The notes under the pieces were generated by a model. It was not told the DNA's origin and searched no databases. It saw nothing but the letters and a program-made list of their open reading frames with translations. Shown here piece by piece: positions 48,741-62,235 of a DNA stretch of 64,000 nucleotides (its first letter is position 1; every line of letters begins with the position of its first letter). This DNA comes from Rhizobium sp. Q54 (GTDB taxonomy: Bacteria; Pseudomonadota; Alphaproteobacteria; SMXS01), in the NCBI GenBank assembly GCA_945907245.1, contig CAMDTB010000002.1:1-64000 (forward strand), in the 5' to 3' direction. The translations under genes were made by a program, and so were the position numbers.

Positions 48741-49529
48741 TTACGGCAGGGTGTGCATGCCGCCTTCGAGCATGAAGGTGCTGCCGGTCATGTAGTCTGA
48801 GCCGGGACCGGCGAGGAACACGGCGATCGGGCCGGCATCCACGTCGGGATCGCCAAGCCGGCGCATCGGGATGCGCTGCTTAAGCGCCTCGACGAATTCG
48901 GGCCGGGCGGTCTTCCACGCGTCGAACGCACGGGTCTCAAGCGCGGGATTGATGGTGTTGACGGTGATGCCGTACTGGCCCCACTCGTTGGCCGCGGTCC
49001 GGGTCAGGGCGCGGATCGCTTCCTTGGTCGAGTTGTAGCAGGTGTTGCCCGGGAACCCCATCTGGCCGGAGCTGGACGCGAAATTGATGATCTTGCCGTA
49101 GTGCTGGGCCTTCATGTGCGGGAACACGGCCTTCATGAACCACAGCGAGGCGGTCGCGCCGGTGCGGAAGGTGTATTCCCACTCGTCCTCGTTGGTGTCC
49201 TCCATGGCGACATAGACCGTCGAGGGCTGCGGGTCATCCTCGGTGCCGAAGCCCTGGGCGTTGTTCACCAGGATGTGGACCGTGCCGAAAGCCTTCACGG
49301 TCTTGTCGACGGCGGCGAACACCTGGTCGCGCTTGCCCACGTCACAGGCGATGCCTATGGCTTCGCCGCCCGCGTCCTTGATCTCCCTGGCGACGGCCTC
49401 GACCGTCGAGGGCGTGCGCGAGACCACCGCGACCTTGGCGCCTTCCCTGGCATAGGCCATGGCGATGGCCCGGCCGATGCCCCTGCCCGCGCCGGTGACG
49501 ATGGCGACCTTGTCCTGCAGCTGCTTCAT
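48741..49529 (-). CDS. SDR family oxidoreductase, 262 aa
   Basis: This is a classical SDR: TGAGRGIG near residue 12, NNAQG near 88 (a variation of NNAG), and catalytic YNSTK near 164-168. The C-terminal ending 'GSTFMLEGGMHTLP' closes it. 'FASSSGQMGFPGNTCYNSTKEAIRALTRT' carries the catalytic serine. Relatives act on steroid-, acyl- or sugar-like alcohols; the substrate is unknown. The start at ATG 49529 was chosen over a longer frame because GGAGAA precedes it and MKQLQDKVAIVTGAG is a typical opening. Confidence 0.82.
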   Translation of the reverse strand: MKQLQDKVAIVTGAGRGIGRAIAMAYAREGAKVAVVSRTPSTVEAVAREIKDAGGEAIGIACDVGKRDQVFAAVDKTVKAFGTVHILVNNAQGFGTEDDPQPSTVYVAMEDTNEDEWEYTFRTGATASLWFMKAVFPHMKAQHYGKIINFASSSGQMGFPGNTCYNSTKEAIRALTRTAANEWGQYGITVNTINPALETRAFDAWKTARPEFVEALKQRIPMRRLGDPDVDAGPIAVFLAGPGSDYMTGSTFMLEGGMHTLP

Positions 49530-49713
49530 GTTCGGTTCTCCACATGCGACGGCGCGGCCATGGACCGGCCGCGCGCTCCCCAACGACACGGCAAAACCCT
49601 ATGCGAGCCCCCGAAGCGGCACAACAGCGAGTTTCAACACGTGTTACATGAAACATCACGGAGACGGGGATTGACCGTCACCCGCGCCAACCGTATGGTC
49701 CGCGCGTTTTCGG

Positions 49714-49789
49714 GAGCCCGTAGCTCAGCTGGTAGAGCATCTGACTTTTAATCAGAGGGTCTCGGGTTCGAACCCCGACGGGCTCACCA
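49714..49789 (+). tRNA. tRNA-Lys (anticodon TTT)
   Basis: A 76-nt cloverleaf: acceptor GAGCCCG / CGGGCTC, D-arm GCTCAGCTGGTAGAGC, anticodon stem TCTGA / TCAGA around CTTTTAA (anticodon TTT), and T-arm TCGGG-TTCGAAC-CCCGA. An encoded CCA follows discriminator A. An AT-rich stretch follows directly. Confidence 0.97.
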
Positions 49790-50295
49790 TAATTTTAAAT
49801 ACTTTACTGGACATCCGACAGCAGGCTGTTCGTATCACAGCGCTACAGCAATCAGATTGCAATCAGGCAAATCTGTTTCGGGTCCTGGAATGATACCCGC
49901 ACCCCGCAGGTTCTACGCTATCGTCCACAGCGAGAAGATTTGTAATGGGACCCACGCCCTGTTTCACGATGCACCGGGGGGATACCTTCGAGCGAAGGGC
50001 GATCCAAGCCCATGTGAGCGTGCAAAATAATCCCAATCCTCAACCAGACGCGCCATTAGTAAGCCGTTCGTCTATCGCCATCGTTGGCAGTCGGATGAGG
50101 CCTCTGGGACAAACCCGCAGGACAATATGAAAAAGCGCCCAAACCCCCGCCGCTTCCCAAGGCCAGATGTTGGACGAATGGAAGGCCGCTGTGTCGGAGG
50201 TGAACAGCACGGCACCGGCCTAAGCCGCCATTCGCGCCGTGTCCCGAACTGGGCTAGGCTTTCCCTCGTAGTCTCCCTCTCTTGGAGTAGCCAGC
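49790..50295. other. gene-poor 506-nt stretch downstream of tRNA-Lys
   Basis: No frame here looks coding: those present are short and compositionally poor. The first 70 nt are AT-rich, the remainder mixed. tRNA 3' ends are common integration sites, so I looked for a second copy of the tRNA 3' end and for integrase remnants, and saw neither. Confidence 0.5.
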
Positions 50296-50790
50296 ATGAT
50301 AGAGATTGAACACAAGCGAGATGCCGACCTTTCAGCCGACGCAGTCTGGGCGGAACTGCGCCACTTTGACCGGGTGCTTGATTGGATTCCCGGCGGGGCT
50401 GAAAGCACAATCCATGTCCACGGTGTGGGGGTCGGCGCGATCCGGGACATACAGCTTTCAACCCAAGGCTATGTGCAGCATCGACTGATCGCCTTTGACG
50501 ATGAAAAGCGGATGCTCTCCTACCAACTCACGGCGGGCAACCCCATCGGCATGCAGGATTACACCGTTGTCGCTACCGTAACACCCATCGACGAACGTCA
50601 TTGTGCGATCCGCTGGGCGGGAAAAATGACGGCAGACGGTAGCCTGGACGAACGCGAGATAGGCCGCGCACTGGAGATTGCCCTGGCAAACATGACCACC
50701 GGCTTGATTGCGCGCCTGAAGGGTAAGGCGCCCGACTTCATCCAGCAGCCGAACGAAGACTGGCAGTTGCGGAACCGCACCGACGAATAA
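50296..50790 (+). CDS. SRPBCC family protein
   Basis: The 164-aa protein shows the START-like/polyketide-cyclase pattern: 'KRDADLSADAVWAELRHFDRVLDWIPGG' at the N-terminus, a run of beta strands ('VGVGAIRDIQLS', 'RLIAFDDEKRMLSYQLT'), 'CAIRWAGKMTADGSLDE' and a long C-terminal helix ('ALEIALANMTTGLIARLKGK'). It binds or transforms a small hydrophobic molecule; the ligand is unknown. TTGGAG lies about 9 nt before ATG 50296. It is a single gene in a sparsely coding stretch. Confidence 0.78.
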   Translation: MIEIEHKRDADLSADAVWAELRHFDRVLDWIPGGAESTIHVHGVGVGAIRDIQLSTQGYVQHRLIAFDDEKRMLSYQLTAGNPIGMQDYTVVATVTPIDERHCAIRWAGKMTADGSLDEREIGRALEIALANMTTGLIARLKGKAPDFIQQPNEDWQLRNRTDE

Positions 50791-50904
50791 TCCCTGCCGG
50801 TACTGTTGGATCAGGGATATGTGTACGGAAAACAAGTGGTTTTCGAACCCGCTCGCGCCCAACTCGGAATTATGCGTGAGGCCCTAAGATGAGCACGGCT
50901 GATA

Positions 50905-50930
50905 GTTTCTGGTTTCTGGTTTCTGGTTTC
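50905..50930. repeat. heptamer tandem repeat (GTTTCTG)
   Basis: Three exact copies of GTTTCTG plus a partial fourth lie between an SRPBCC gene and the end of an alpha/beta hydrolase gene. This is a small VNTR-like tract, not in a reading frame. Confidence 0.85.
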
Positions 50931-50943
50931 CAATTAACAATTC

Positions 50944-51768
50944 TCAGTGTCCTGATCGATCCACGTCGCTGATAAACTGGGTCAGCGCTCGATTGAAGTC
51001 CGCTGGTTTTTCCGTCAGCATAAAATGGGTGGCACCGGCAAAATCCACTCGCTTAGTGACTTTAACATGTTGTTCTAGAAGGTCTGCCACTTCCCGGCAT
51101 GCTGGCGCATCGTATTCGGCTGTAACAATAAGAATCGGAACTTGTATGTTAGTCAGAAGTTCTGTCGCAACCGGTTGTACATTTTGCATCGGGTCTGCAT
51201 GGTTTGCCCACCACCAGCGGTAATCCCTGCAGATACCCGAAATCTCCGTTTTGACCTGTAAATCCATATGTGCTGGATTGTACGCCGGGATGTTGACGAA
51301 GGCGTCCGCCGCCGCACGGGCGCCGTCACGGCGAAAGATTTCGCCACACTCGATATACGCGTCAAACAGGGCGTCAGTGGCTGGTGAAGTGTGTCCAGAT
51401 ATAAAGGGCCCCGCGGCAATGATCGATCTGAATAACTCCGGGTAAACGGTGTAGGCATCCACCGCAACCTGACAACCTAGCGAAAAGCCGGCGATATCTG
51501 CCCTGGATATTCCCAGGGCCAGCATCAATCCGTGCAAGTCATCCGCGTGCCTGTAGGCCTGCCCCTCAACCGGATTATCTGATTTGCCGTATCCGCGAAG
51601 ATCATAGCGAACGACGTCATAGGTCTCCGCCAATTTTTCGAATTGCCCATCCCAAAAGCGCCGGTCACCACCACCCCCATGGACCAGCAGCAACGGGTCA
51701 CCTGCTCCTAACCGCTCGCAGTATAGCCTGGTGCCATTGACGTCGATTAGCTTCTGCCAGACTTCCAT
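50944..51768 (-). CDS. alpha/beta-fold hydrolase, 274 aa
   Basis: The protein shows the alpha/beta-hydrolase layout: oxyanion region 'LLLVHGGGGDRRFWDGQF' (about 27-43), 'VVRYDLRGYGKSDNP', nucleophile S96 in GFSLG, a cap region, the acid in 'VTAEYDAPA' and the catalytic His in 'GATHFML'. The substrate is unknown. Composition here is noticeably less GC-rich than the neighbouring operons. ATG 51768 is preferred, since MEVWQKLIDVNGTRLYCE is a natural opening; a GTG at 51828 would add 20 residues. Confidence 0.83.
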   Translation of the reverse strand: MEVWQKLIDVNGTRLYCERLGAGDPLLLVHGGGGDRRFWDGQFEKLAETYDVVRYDLRGYGKSDNPVEGQAYRHADDLHGLMLALGISRADIAGFSLGCQVAVDAYTVYPELFRSIIAAGPFISGHTSPATDALFDAYIECGEIFRRDGARAAADAFVNIPAYNPAHMDLQVKTEISGICRDYRWWWANHADPMQNVQPVATELLTNIQVPILIVTAEYDAPACREVADLLEQHVKVTKRVDFAGATHFMLTEKPADFNRALTQFISDVDRSGH

Positions 51769-52039
51769 ATCAATATAACTTTCCAAGCTTGGGGCGTAGC
51801 TTCTGTCCGTCGTCAGAACATTTGGCACATCTCGGCGTGTAGACTAACGCAGTGCAGGCGTCGTCTCGGGGTTGATGTTAGGCGGCGAGCTTGCGGTGTT
51901 GCAAGCGCCGGTATTCGACGGAAGAGGCTATCCGGGGAACATCCGGCACGCGCCGTACGTTCAGGCTGCGACCGTTTCGGTGCTGCCGCTCCGCCGATTC
52001 CGGAAAGTCCCGTCCATCGGCGTTCCAACAGGAGAAGAC

Positions 52040-52225
52040 ATGCCCCTGCTGCATGTAGTGATCGTCCTCGTCGTCGTCGGCATCATGCTCTGGCTGGTCA
52101 ATGCCTACATCCCGATGGACGCAAAGATCAAAAAGATCCTCAACATCGTCGTCGTCATCGCTGTCATCATCTGGCTGCTGCAGGCTTTCGGCCTGCTGGG
52201 CGCGATCGGCAGCGTCCGGATCTGA
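52040..52225 (+). CDS. Thivi_2564 family small membrane protein, 61 aa
   Basis: This small protein has two hydrophobic segments, 'LHVVIVLVVVGIMLWLVNAYIP' and 'ILNIVVVIAVIIWLLQAFGLLG', joined by 'MDAKIKKIL'. It matches the Thivi_2564 family of unknown function, present in many alphaproteobacteria. The start at ATG 52040 is fixed by GGAG 9 nt upstream; the longer reading frame has no support. Confidence 0.85.
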   Translation: MPLLHVVIVLVVVGIMLWLVNAYIPMDAKIKKILNIVVVIAVIIWLLQAFGLLGAIGSVRI

Positions 52226-52353
52226 GGAAAGCAGCCTCCCGCCGGTATGTCCACCATGGAACTTCGCCACCGGGAATTCGTTCTGGTCCCGCTGAATCGG
52301 CGTTGCCGCGCCGCCCAGGGACCACCCACATTCCCGGCACCATGGAGACACCG

Positions 52354-52683
52354 ATGAGGAAAATTCTGTTCTCGATCGTTACCGCGTCCGCGCTGCTGAG
52401 CGCCGGCATTGCCTTCGCCGAGTCGTCCACGACCACCACGACCACCTGGACCGCGGATAACGGCACGGTGATTAAGGAATACTCGACCACCAAGAAGTAC
52501 GCGCCGATCAGCGATCCGTCGATGAATGCGGAAGTGGGCGCCGTCCTGCCCGGCACGGTCGCGGTGTACCCGCTGCCGGAGACCATGAAGGTCGAGAACC
52601 CCGACCGGTACAGCTACACGATCATCAACAACAAGCCGATGGTCGTCGAGCGCAGCAGCCGGCGCGTTGTCCACATCTGGTAA
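52354..52683 (+). CDS. DUF1236 domain exported protein
   Basis: The 109-aa protein has a Sec signal peptide (MRKILFSIVTASALLSAGIAFA) and a mature threonine-rich stretch. It ends with the DUF1236 pattern 'VGAVLPGTVAVYPLPETMKVENPDRYSYTIINNKPMVVERSSRRVVHIW'. The role is unknown; the family is periplasmic and often stress-linked. ATG 52354 has GGAG 8 nt upstream, and a clear terminator lies 30 nt after the stop. Confidence 0.85.
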   Translation: MRKILFSIVTASALLSAGIAFAESSTTTTTTWTADNGTVIKEYSTTKKYAPISDPSMNAEVGAVLPGTVAVYPLPETMKVENPDRYSYTIINNKPMVVERSSRRVVHIW

Positions 52684-52712
52684 GCTCGGTACACCCTGCA
52701 GATGACTCGATG

Positions 52713-52745
52713 AGCCCCGCCGGAATGTTCCGGCGGGGCTTTCGA
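52713..52745 (+). terminator. terminator hairpin after the DUF1236 gene
   Basis: AGCCCCGCCGGAA (52713-52725) and TTCCGGCGGGGCT (52728-52740) are exact 13-bp arms followed by TTTCG. The T-tail is short, but the stem is strong and its position 30 nt after a stop codon fits a terminator. Confidence 0.75.
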
Positions 52746-52776
52746 TGTGCGGGTCGTTATACGAGAGCCAGGCGCT

Positions 52777-52959
52777 TCAGGCGCCCAGGGCCGCGACGTC
52801 CTCGTTGCCCCGTTCCTCGTGGTTCGCAGCGCGCGAATAGGTGATCGAGGCCTTGGGGTGCTCGGATTTGACGAACTTGGCGGCTTCAAGCGCATCTTCC
52901 GCCTCGAGGGTCACATGTTCCGATGTCTCGTTGATCCGGTAACCGACGGTGTACAGCAC
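52777..52959 (-). CDS. small soluble protein, 60 aa
   Basis: Translation most likely begins at GTG 52959, which has GGGAGAAG 3-4 nt upstream; an ATG 57 nt further out has no such site. The protein reads 'MLYTVGYRINETSEHVTLEAEDALEAAKFVKSEHPKASITYSRA...'. It has a beta-strand start and an 'AEDALEAAKFVKSEHP' helix, a pattern found in small hypothetical proteins. Function unknown. It faces the upstream terminator convergently. Confidence 0.6.
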   Translation of the reverse strand: MLYTVGYRINETSEHVTLEAEDALEAAKFVKSEHPKASITYSRAANHEERGNEDVAALGA

Positions 52960-53301
52960 GGGCTTCTCCCTCTGATGACGTTCCTGCCAAACGCGCCTCC
53001 GAGACGCCGGTTCCATGGTGCCGCGTAGAGAGAGTCCGGAAATCAGTCGCTTATATCAATATAAATAATACTTTAAGATATTGTCTTCAGTGCTGACATG
53101 ATCTTGGGGCCGCGGTAAAGAGACGACGCTCAAGAAGGCGAAAAAGGTCGATGCGCCAGATTCTTACCTACAAATCCTGATGTCGGCTTCGTGACCACGC
53201 TGCCTAAAATGGGTATCTGATTCCAACCAACTCTAAGGTATAATGGGGTGTCTCCGGCGTTGACGGGGCCGAACAGATCCGGGCAAGGGCGCGGGGCAAC
53301 C

Positions 53302-53550
53302 ATGAGTTCTCCTATAATCGACAAGATCATGAATGAGCAGGACAGGGATTTCATCCGTGTCCTCGAGGACCTGATCGACGTGCTCGTCGCACGCGGAGTC
53401 ATCACCATGGAAATGCTCCCCCCGGATGCGCGGGAAAAGCTGGCCACCAGGCGGCAGATGCGCGACTCCCTGCGGGAGCCCACCGCCGCGCGGCCGGTCG
53501 ACATCTCTGCGATCGACCAGAAGCTGGCCGCACTGCGCTTCAAGGAATAG
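53302..53550 (+). CDS. small helical protein, 82 aa
   Basis: The protein begins 'MSSPIIDKIMNEQDRDFIRVLEDLIDVLVARGVITMEMLPPDAREKL'. It has helices of mixed charge and a C-terminal 'ISAIDQKLAALRF' helix, and no membrane or export signal. The start is ATG 53302 with GGGG upstream. I do not recognise the family. It lies about 70 nt before the next gene, an HSL-type hydrolase. Confidence 0.6.
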   Translation: MSSPIIDKIMNEQDRDFIRVLEDLIDVLVARGVITMEMLPPDAREKLATRRQMRDSLREPTAARPVDISAIDQKLAALRFKE

Positions 53551-58695: not shown

Positions 58696-59994
58696 TTGCG
58701 CGCAGCCCCTTTCTTTCCTGGCCAGACCATGAGCACCGCCTATGCGGTGACGGTCGATGACATGTCGCTGCATTTCGACCCGGCCAAGCTGACCCCGAAG
58801 CAGCGCAAGGACGAGGCCGAAAGCGCCGATCTCATGGGTTTCCTGCAGGTGGTCTATATCGGCCTGGGCAAGCCCGCCGACTACGTCATGATGTACGAGG
58901 AGTTCGGCGTCGCGCCCTGGCCCGAGCGGCTGGCGGCCATCACCGAATTCTTCAAGCGCATGGGCATCGACCACATCCCGCCCGAGCACCGTATCCTGCA
59001 TCCCAAGACCGACTTCTATAATTCCATTGCCCGCAATCTGCCGCCGACCGACAGCATCACCCTCTACATGACCAGCGGCACCAACAGCGTGCTGCACAAC
59101 GACCCCGAAGCCTACCGGGTCAGCCAGAACGTCAATTCCAAGATCCATTTCGCCCGCAACGCGCCCGGCTTCGGCATCCCGGTGCCGGAGACCATCGTGC
59201 TCACCAAGGGCACGCTGGATTCGCCGCTGGCGCATGGCTTCATCGCAAAGCACGGCAACAAGGTGATGATGAAGGTCCTCGGTCTGGCCGGCGCGCGCAA
59301 CGTGACGACCGTGACCAGCATCCAGGAGGCGAAGGACTACGTCGCCGAGTACGAGGACAGCATGGAGCTGATCCTGCAGCAGCGGCTGGACCTGACCCGG
59401 TTCACCGAGATGACCGTCGATTTGCGGGTGACGCCCGATGAGATCGTCATCGCCAACGTGCGCAAGATCATGTTCGCCGACGGTGTCTGGGTCGGCAACC
59501 TGATCGGTCCGGACGTGATCCTGACCGAGGCGCACAAGGAGGTTCTGCTGAACGTTGGCGCCTACGCCCGCGCCCAGGGCTTCGTGTGCCCGGAAGGCAT
59601 CAATTGCGGCATCGACTATTTCATCGCCGGCGACGAGGTGATGGTCACCGAGATCAACTGCCGCTGGACCGGCGGCCTGTTCCCCACCGAGATGATCCGC
59701 AAGGTCGGCGCCCAGAACGAAAGCTGCGTCGCCTTCGTCGACATGGTGCGCGATGACAAGTTCAACGACTGGCTGGGCTTCGTCGACCGTCATCTGTGGA
59801 AGGAGACCGAGGGCGAGTTCGCGATGATCCCGTTGGGTTTCAGCCCGATCCCGCAGGTCATCGATGGCGTCGACCATTTCCTGACCTGGCAGGTCGTGGC
59901 CGGCGATTTCGACGCCTTCAAGCAGGCCCGCCGGGACGAGCTGGGCGACGGCGCGCTGATGCGAGCGGATTCGATCAGCCTGGAGTTCAGCTGA
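58696..59994 (+). CDS. ATP-grasp-type ligase-like protein
   Basis: The 432-aa protein ends its catalytic half with 'GDEVMVTEINCRWTGGLFPTEM', the metal/ATP-binding EIN motif of ATP-grasp enzymes. Before it comes 'LILQQRLDLTRFTEMTVDLRVTPDEIVIANVRKI', typical of the second half of the fold. The N-terminal 190 residues hold 'VLHNDPEAYRVSQNVNSKIHFARNAPGFGIPVPETIVLTKG'. ATP-grasp enzymes join carboxylates to amines or thiols via acylphosphates. The TTG at 58696 has GGGAGA 8 nt upstream, whereas ATG 58729 has none, so I choose TTG. The partner substrate is unknown. Confidence 0.7.
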   Translation: MRAAPFFPGQTMSTAYAVTVDDMSLHFDPAKLTPKQRKDEAESADLMGFLQVVYIGLGKPADYVMMYEEFGVAPWPERLAAITEFFKRMGIDHIPPEHRILHPKTDFYNSIARNLPPTDSITLYMTSGTNSVLHNDPEAYRVSQNVNSKIHFARNAPGFGIPVPETIVLTKGTLDSPLAHGFIAKHGNKVMMKVLGLAGARNVTTVTSIQEAKDYVAEYEDSMELILQQRLDLTRFTEMTVDLRVTPDEIVIANVRKIMFADGVWVGNLIGPDVILTEAHKEVLLNVGAYARAQGFVCPEGINCGIDYFIAGDEVMVTEINCRWTGGLFPTEMIRKVGAQNESCVAFVDMVRDDKFNDWLGFVDRHLWKETEGEFAMIPLGFSPIPQVIDGVDHFLTWQVVAGDFDAFKQARRDELGDGALMRADSISLEFS

Positions 59995-60177
59995 GCGGCC
60001 GACTGTTGCGCAATCGCTGGGGGGCAGGTGATGTTTGCGTGCATTGATCAATTGGCATTCCATATGTGGTAGCCAAGGATAGAATCTATTGCGGCCGAGA
60101 TTGGCGCAATTTATAATGAATACAAAAGATGGTTACTGCTTGAGGTAGGTGAGGTGGGGGGGGGGTAATTTGATGTG

Positions 60178-60723
60178 ATGATGGAGCTACTAAGTAGTGT
60201 CTTAGACTGGGCGTTTGATCAGAATAATGCGCTTCAAATAACGGGCGTTAGCTTTTGGTTGGCGGTTTTGAGTCTTTTCCTTACGATAATTGGTTTTACC
60301 ATTACATGGCTACAGCTAGTTAAAACAACGTCAGCTGCAGAAGCGGCTAAAGCTGAGTCGGAGAGGATTAAAATTTCTCTCAATGCCTATGATCTCGCGC
60401 AGGAAGCGTCTCGTGCGATTTTTGCCTTACAAACTGCGCAAAAGCATCTCAGAAGCGGAAGCTTGTTTGACGCCGCAGAAAACTATGAAATATATCGCCG
60501 CGGGCTTCTAACTCTCCGTGCAGGTTGCAAGAAATTGGATCCAGCAACAGTCCAGTCAATCGATGATGCGTCAAAATATATCTCTCATATATGTAGTCGC
60601 ATAGAGGGCAGCATAAGCAAAAATGGAACCAATATAAATCAAGAGAAAACCTTAAACATCATGAGGAGCCATCTTGATTTGATTCATGATGTTAGTCGCG
60701 TCATCGAAGGAGACTTAATATAA
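60178..60723 (+). CDS. membrane-anchored helical protein of a low-GC two-gene unit
   Basis: This 181-aa protein begins at ATG 60178 (GTG and ATG alternatives lie one codon either side). It has one membrane segment at about residues 25-48 (SFWLAVLSLFLTIIGFTIT). A long helical, lysine/alanine-rich C-terminal region follows, including 'TTSAAEAAKAESERIKISLN', likely a coiled coil. Codon use and base composition are clearly AT-richer than the genes on either side, which suggests transfer. A G10 run ends 12 nt before the start, so the upstream signal may vary in length. It overlaps the next gene by one base. I do not recognise the family. Confidence 0.7.
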   Translation: MMELLSSVLDWAFDQNNALQITGVSFWLAVLSLFLTIIGFTITWLQLVKTTSAAEAAKAESERIKISLNAYDLAQEASRAIFALQTAQKHLRSGSLFDAAENYEIYRRGLLTLRAGCKKLDPATVQSIDDASKYISHICSRIEGSISKNGTNINQEKTLNIMRSHLDLIHDVSRVIEGDLI

Positions 60724-61100
60724 TGGCAGATTTATCTGATAAATATGCCCTCTTGGTGGATCGACTTTACAGAAACACCATAGTTGACAAAATAATCTGG
60801 GAGCTCGACAGAGGTGGCGTGCCGTTAACAAAAATTTCAGATAAAACAATACGTGTATCAAAATCTTTGAACAGCGATGGACAGCCATTAGTTGTGGTTA
60901 CCGTGTATGGGGAATCGGGTTCTGCGATTGAATCGTTCAATGATGAGTTTCTAACTTCTATTTCTCCTCCAGATTCCGACTTTATGACGTATTGGGCAAA
61001 AATGGAGGCACTGCATCAACTCGCTATTCGACGTGCCACTGGCGCAGACAAAGCGTTGGATGAGCTACTGCGCGACTTAGATGACAAAAATCTTGCTTAG
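60723..61100 (+). CDS. small soluble protein, second gene of the low-GC unit
   Basis: The 125-aa protein starts at ATG 60723, overlapping the stop of the preceding gene (TAATG), which implies a shared operon. It reads 'DKYALLVDRLYRNTIVDKIIWELDRGGVPLTKISDKTIRVSKS', a strand-rich middle, and a C-terminal helix 'ALHQLAIRRATGADKALDELLRDL'. The closing 'L..LAIRRATG.DKALDELL' pattern recalls small hypothetical proteins seen in accessory islands of other bacteria, but no function is known to me. It could be the soluble partner of the membrane protein. Confidence 0.7.
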   Translation: MADLSDKYALLVDRLYRNTIVDKIIWELDRGGVPLTKISDKTIRVSKSLNSDGQPLVVVTVYGESGSAIESFNDEFLTSISPPDSDFMTYWAKMEALHQLAIRRATGADKALDELLRDLDDKNLA

Positions 61101-61224
61101 AGGCATCGTGCCGGTCAGTGGAGAATTCATCCAAAGCTTGGGGTGGAGCAATGAGCGACGTAAGCCATTTTGGGGCGGTCGTCATAGGGTTTGCTAATAC
61201 TCCTTTCCCGGCTAAATATGCCCC

Positions 61225-62235
61225 ATGACCAAATACTCCGTTCTCGATCTCTGCCCCGTCGTCGAAGGCGCCACGCCGGCCGACGCGTTCCGCAACTCGC
61301 GCGACCTCGCGCAGCATGCGGAGCGGCTCGGCTACGAGCGGTTCTGGCTGGCCGAGCATCACGGCATGCCCGGCGTCGCGAGCGCGGCCACGTCCATCGT
61401 CATCTCGCATGTGGCGGCCGGCACCTCGACGATCAGGGTGGGCGCCGGCGGCATCATGCTGCCGAACCATGCGCCGCTGGTGATCGCCGAGCAGTTCGGC
61501 ACCCTCGTCTCGCTCTATCCGGGACGGGTCGACCTGGGGCTGGGCCGCGCGCCTGGCACCGACCAGATGACCGCGCGCGCGCTGCGCCGCAACCTGGACT
61601 CCGATCCGAACGAGTTCCCGCGCGATGTGATGGAGCTGGTGAACTATTTCCGCGACCCCGATCCCAACAACTATGTCCGCGCCATTCCCGGCGAGGGCAC
61701 CCATGTGCCGGTGTGGATCCTGGGCTCCAGCCTGTTCGGCGCGTCGCTGGCGGCGGCGCTGGGCCTGCCCTTCGCCTTCGCCTCGCACTTCGCGCCGGCG
61801 CAGATGATGCAGGCCATCGAGATCTACCGGAGCAAGTTCAAGCCGTCCGAGTTCCTGGAAAAATCCTACCTGATGCTGGGCTACAACGTGTTCGCCGCGC
61901 CGACCGACGCCGAGGCGCGGCTGCTGGCCAGTTCCATGCAGCAGGCGTTCATCGCCATCCGCACCGGCCGCTCGGTCCGACTGCAGCCGCCGATCGAGAA
62001 TTTCCAGGATACGCTCGGCCCGTCCGAACTCTACCTGCTGGAGCAGACCCTCGACCGCTCGGCGATCGGCTCGCCCGAGACGGTACGCCGGACGCTGGAG
62101 GATTTCGTCGGCAAGACCGGCGCCGACGAGGTGATGATCGCCTCGCAGATCTACGACCACGACCTGCGCAAGCGCTCCTACGCGATTACCGCCGACGTGG
62201 TGGGCATGGCAGCGACTGCATCGGTGACTGCGTAA
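61225..62235 (+). CDS. LLM-class flavin-dependent oxidoreductase (luciferase-like)
   Basis: This 336-aa TIM-barrel monooxygenase has '[63 protein letters not shown]' and '[12 protein letters not shown]', the standard markers of the LLM family (FMN or F420 users; FMN expected here). The substrate is unknown. The start ATG 61225 has no strong ribosome site. It returns to typical high-GC composition after the AT-rich pair. A 252-nt gap separates it from the next gene. Confidence 0.87.

Follow-up and report, generated by a model that had tools for sequence, protein, structure and literature searches.

A horizontally acquired pair of overlapping genes, encoding a predicted membrane protein and a predicted soluble protein, in a variable chromosomal slot of Rhizobium sp. 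Q54

Modules of the RexA/RexB type are two-component abortive-infection systems that act at the membrane. The gene pair described here, P1 and P2, resembles them in that a soluble and a membrane protein are predicted from adjacent, coupled genes. It differs from them in that P1 has one predicted transmembrane (TM) helix and in that the pair matches no defence model tested. A second comparison is with tRNA-adjacent islets that lack an integrase, and with variable intergenic slots. As in these, the pair forms a short insert of foreign composition between conserved genes, empty and alternative-cargo alleles occur in relatives, and three of the six complete pairs found lie just downstream of a tRNA gene (tRNA-Met, tRNA-Lys and tRNA-Gly). 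Here, we show that P1 and P2 constitute a horizontally acquired, tightly coupled two-gene cassette in a variable chromosomal slot.

The two genes lie near the end of a 64,000-nucleotide stretch of Rhizobium sp. Q54 DNA, referred to below as the window (Table 1). Both ORFs are intact, and they overlap by one base at the junction TAATG. Their composition is foreign to the region, with a GC content of 0.425 (P1) and 0.431 (P2) against 0.63 and 0.68 in the flanking genes, and a third-position GC of 0.41 and 0.39 against 0.90 and 0.91. When GC was calculated for 1.1-kb segments of the window (mean 0.652, standard deviation 0.040), the minimum of 0.436 fell on the P1/P2 segment. The original prediction of an overlapping, low-GC gene pair of foreign composition, marked upstream by a run of ten G's, was thus reproduced in its coordinates, composition and overlap. 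It had also named the neighbouring genes. The luciferase-like name is firm, since the right flank is an LLM oxidoreductase of the MsnO8 family (NCBIfam TIGR03558, E 4e-133), whereas for the left flank the name ATP-grasp relies on Pfam and NCBIfam matches that all fall below cut-off. GC is also reduced (0.53-0.63) at 49500-53500 of the window, directly after a tRNA-Lys gene (49714-49789), and this stretch may be another small island.

Table 1. Features of the P1/P2 locus, in window coordinates.
Feature	Position	Strand	Description	Basis
Left flank gene	58696..59994	+	ATP-grasp-like; 92-94% identical in G001, G003 and G005	weak matches only
AT-rich inserted segment	59995..61183 (approximate boundaries)	.	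GC about 0.45; a conserved gene on either side	
G10 tract	60156-60165	+	GTG 60175 follows after 9 nt, ATG 60181 after 15 nt	within GAGGTGGGGGGGGGG
P1	60175..60723	+	180-182 aa; start options GTG 60175, in-frame ATG 60178, ATG 60181; short N-terminal region, one transmembrane helix, predicted cytosolic helical domain	ORF; hydropathy; low-confidence all-helical model; homologues in five further pairs
P2	60723..61100	+	125 aa, predicted soluble	ORF; structure model; homologues
Right flank gene	61225..62235	+	LLM-class (luciferase-like) oxidoreductase; 94-95% identical in relatives	

The insertion site could be defined by comparison with three genomes of the same genus (G001, G003 and G005), in which both flanking genes are neighbours and 92-95% identical to those of the window. 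Against these genomes the left flank can be aligned up to its TGA stop codon (59992-59994), and the right flank resumes at about 61184 (TAGGGTTTG). Only 98 bp separate the flanking genes in G005, and in G001 and G003 about 1.6 kb are occupied by one gene of normal GC, which from its sequence reads as a Rieske-type ring-hydroxylating oxygenase (loci L014 and L015). The slot is therefore variable: it exists in three states, as a gap, with the Rieske-type gene, or with the AT-rich pair (in G000, the genome of the window), and presence and absence are seen at one conserved site. No P2 match was found in six other genomes of the genus. Unlike the tRNA-adjacent islets mentioned above, the window site yielded no tRNA, integrase, flanking direct repeats or clear target duplication. 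Two repeats were considered and rejected. A direct repeat (59995-60014 and 60091-60110, 80% identical) was discarded as a target duplication as the right end of the insert has no counterpart, and an inverted repeat (61051-61063 and 61127-61139) was discarded as an integron attC site because the order of its boxes is wrong and one of them lies inside P2.

Homologues of both proteins were searched for initially in 398 genomes, and later with profiles built from the window proteins and the members found. The profiles were needed, as the window proteins used as single queries matched nothing in plasmids, phages, viral contigs or GTDB contigs. The first relative of P2 appeared among the 398 genomes in Bradyrhizobium sp. 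149 (G468; E 1.4e-6), where the upstream neighbour proved to be a relative of P1. Six complete pairs are now known: those of the window, Bradyrhizobium sp. 149, Bradyrhizobium sp. NFR13 (G866), G653, G686 and G697. P1 precedes P2 in all six, and the start of P2 lies at -1, -11, +1, -4, -4 and +2 nt, respectively, relative to where the P1 stop codon ends. Full-length P1 was found in four genomes of the alphaproteobacterial class sample, each time adjoined by P2; G603 carries a truncated P1 remnant only, and the remaining weak P1 matches in that sample are probably due to chance. A match in G478 was rejected as spurious, as it falls inside a sucA-like ORF. Members of either family are rare and scattered, occurring in about 1-2% of the genomes in the samples searched and, for Alphaproteobacteria, in about 1% of those sampled. 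Comparison of the two Bradyrhizobium copies, in which synonymous sites are saturated, gave pN 0.29 and pS 0.82 for P1, and pN 0.43 and pS 0.73 for P2; the lower nonsynonymous change in both genes fits purifying selection.

Neither protein reached the threshold of any Pfam, NCBIfam, PHROGs or PADLOC model (sub-threshold Pfam matches to CD20 and BON were disregarded), so the pair is undescribed in the libraries tested. The absence of a recognised family had been anticipated from the sequence of the window, and the partnership that had been put forward as its own test was borne out by the side-by-side occurrence of P1 and P2 in five further genomes.

P2 also has relatives outside the cassette. 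A P2-like protein occurs without P1 in G233, and P2 is homologous to the N-terminal domain of proteins of 390-492 aa in G162, G304, G393 and G407 (hhalign probability 97.5, E 6.8e-12, 106 columns). Beyond this domain the longer proteins are unlike P2: they carry a long acidic, proline-rich tail, have no P1 alongside and are apparently encoded by ordinary genes. Because the domain is found alone in one genome and fused in four others, it is not specific to the cassette. The tails of the longer proteins (L044, L045, L046 and L047, from position 1489), for which there is no family name, end in RFNPW(N/S), and in L044 and L045 the gene lies directly downstream of a thioredoxin-like gene.

In each of the six cases the GC content of the pair is below that of the flanking DNA, and the six sites are different and unrelated. 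Besides the tRNA-adjacent contexts, the G653 pair is part of a GC-poor island that carries a serine recombinase (Pfam Resolvase, 4.9e-44) and truncates or interrupts a comM/Mg-chelatase-like gene. In this island (L034, 4212-10124), the recombinase, P1 and P2 are accompanied by a protein of 174 aa and a TPR protein of 647 aa; interpretation of the latter as a TIR protein was rejected, since searches of Pfam and of PDB sequences gave it no support. The G697 pair follows sucA-sucB. There (L065, 1142-2037) the adjacent P1 and P2 have GC contents of 0.59 and 0.38, so that the low value is mainly that of P2, a contrast that hints at separate histories. It is because of the six unrelated sites, the low GC relative to the flanks and the tRNA-adjacent and island contexts that we call the unit mobile, and we consider it very probable that P1 and P2 are a real mobile gene pair.

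P1 has one strong predicted TM stretch at about residues 23-41 (mean hydropathy 2.26). In the four members examined its N-terminal flank is acidic and its C-terminal flank bears K/R residues, which by the positive-inside rule weakly suggests an N-out, C-in orientation. P1 was modelled, with low confidence (mean pLDDT 61.6), as a bundle made up entirely of helices, and fold searches with this model retrieved generic helical bundles only (Z up to 12.4). The P2 model, of moderate confidence (mean pLDDT 71.4), consists of a helix, beta strands and two helices; its best matches had a Foldseek E of 0.16 and a VIA Z of 4.7 (rmsd 3.9 over 69 aligned residues). Neither fold search returned anything usable for function, and profile searches of PDB sequences with the family gave chance-level matches only.

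Taken together, the best joint explanation is a mobile cassette of a predicted membrane protein, P1, and a putative soluble partner, P2, possibly with a protective accessory role, a reading to which we assign a probability of roughly 0.4. P1 would cross the inner membrane once, with its N-terminus outside, its C-terminus inside and a helical bundle in the cytosol, and the soluble P2 would bind or control it. Among possible roles, the most likely would be that of an accessory protective module, for example in abortive-infection-type phage defence, in which P2 may sense or restrain and P1 may act at the membrane. We offer this abortive-infection-like reading as a conjecture, held tentatively and at somewhat less than even odds. 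Its more specific form, a two-gene membrane-linked anti-phage module of Alphaproteobacteria in which a P1 effector is held inactive by, or triggered through, P2 and which resides in integrase-free islets near tRNA genes or in variable slots, is plausible rather than probable.

The genomic neighbourhoods bear on this reading at two loci at most. In Bradyrhizobium sp. 149, a KAP P-loop NTPase (Pfam, 2.9e-6; L028, 5573-7288) is convergent with the pair and matches the PADLOC candidate PDC-S49 (E 2.9e-23). This gene adjoins the pair, but it is a neighbour with no homology to P1 or P2, and no counterpart was seen next to the five remaining pairs. Together with the recombinase island of G653, a possible defence-island signal is thus limited to one or two of six loci among the neighbours scanned. 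A PADLOC-candidate neighbour occurs at just one locus, and a sample of six does not allow enrichment to be tested. The models of PADLOC-DB 2.0, a library dating from 2023, matched neither protein of the window or of Bradyrhizobium sp. 149. The contexts therefore suffice to call the pair mobile, but not to call it a defence system.

Other functions have to be weighed against the protective one. The pair might be an accessory envelope or stress-related unit that is not defensive and has spread as niche-specific cargo. In most cases (G686, NFR13, G697 and the window) the closest neighbours have the look of normal chromosomal genes, and a protein encoded outside islands likewise contains the P2 domain. 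Moreover, the same slot holds the metabolic Rieske-type gene in G001 and G003, so the slot itself is not specific to defence. Against such a role, the very low and scattered occurrence of the pair and its consistently foreign composition are more usual for accessory modules that are exchanged rapidly, and we regard an envelope or stress function as plausible, though less likely than a protective one.

A small, overlapping, sporadic and mobile pair that includes a membrane protein, and that is found in tRNA-adjacent and island contexts, could also recall a toxin-antitoxin-like addiction pair. In that case P1 would be toxic at the membrane, P2 would serve as its antitoxin or regulator, and the pair would persist through self-maintenance and not because of phage defence. 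Addiction modules are usually common on plasmids, yet 72,556 plasmid records searched with several family members as queries contained no match to P1 or P2. Neither protein matched a toxin or antitoxin family above threshold in Pfam, NCBIfam or PHROGs, and P2 has no recognisable DNA-binding domain. An addiction role thus appears improbable.

It had been suggested that the G10 tract could vary in length, by slippage altering the translation of P1 or the spacing of its promoter, which would make the module phase-variable. The tract does sit in a 5' untranslated position, and there is a precedent in espR of M. tuberculosis, in which changes in the length of a poly-G run in the 5'UTR alter translation (PMC11898584). 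It is the sole run of at least seven G or C in the window; such a tract arose in 17 of 100 shuffles of the whole window, but dinucleotide shuffling of the AT-rich segment produced one in only 3 of 2000 trials, so that it is improbable there. Nevertheless, no G-run precedes P1 in the four other pairs examined (those of Bradyrhizobium sp. 149, NFR13, G653 and G686). The 3.34-Mb genome contains five G/C runs of at least nine, their lengths taken from a single assembly. One of them lies near a contig start, and another, of 20 G's, closes a contig (G000:C1:132614-132633) and is probably an assembly artefact caused by poly-G reads. A second G10 tract (L049, 1575-1584; G000:C3:28074-28083) ends 5 nt before the apparent start codon of a gene that reads as apt, a housekeeping gene. 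At the same position the tract is G6 in three genomes of the genus and G5 in a fourth, and the pre-apt tract has therefore been lengthened in the present genome or in its assembly. Since its position fits and a G10 tract also precedes apt, the tract before P1 probably belongs to a G-rich ribosome-binding region (GAGGTGGGGGGGGGG), with no role as a switch. The length-switch proposal is accordingly not upheld, and we consider a phase-variable module very improbable.

Finally, that the segment is a non-functional AT-rich remnant or a set of chance ORFs is hardly credible and largely refuted by the conserved pairs: family matches are lacking and P1 is truncated in G603, but full-length homologous pairs with the same gene order exist elsewhere, purifying selection is indicated between the Bradyrhizobium copies, and both ORFs of the window are intact.

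Conserved mobile gene pairs without a family name have been the source material of many recently recognised defence systems. Now that the P1/P2 cassette is known from six independent loci, with both families aligned and an empty site clearly defined, it is open to direct testing. In addition, P2 contributes a small, undescribed alpha-beta domain that recurs beyond the cassette.
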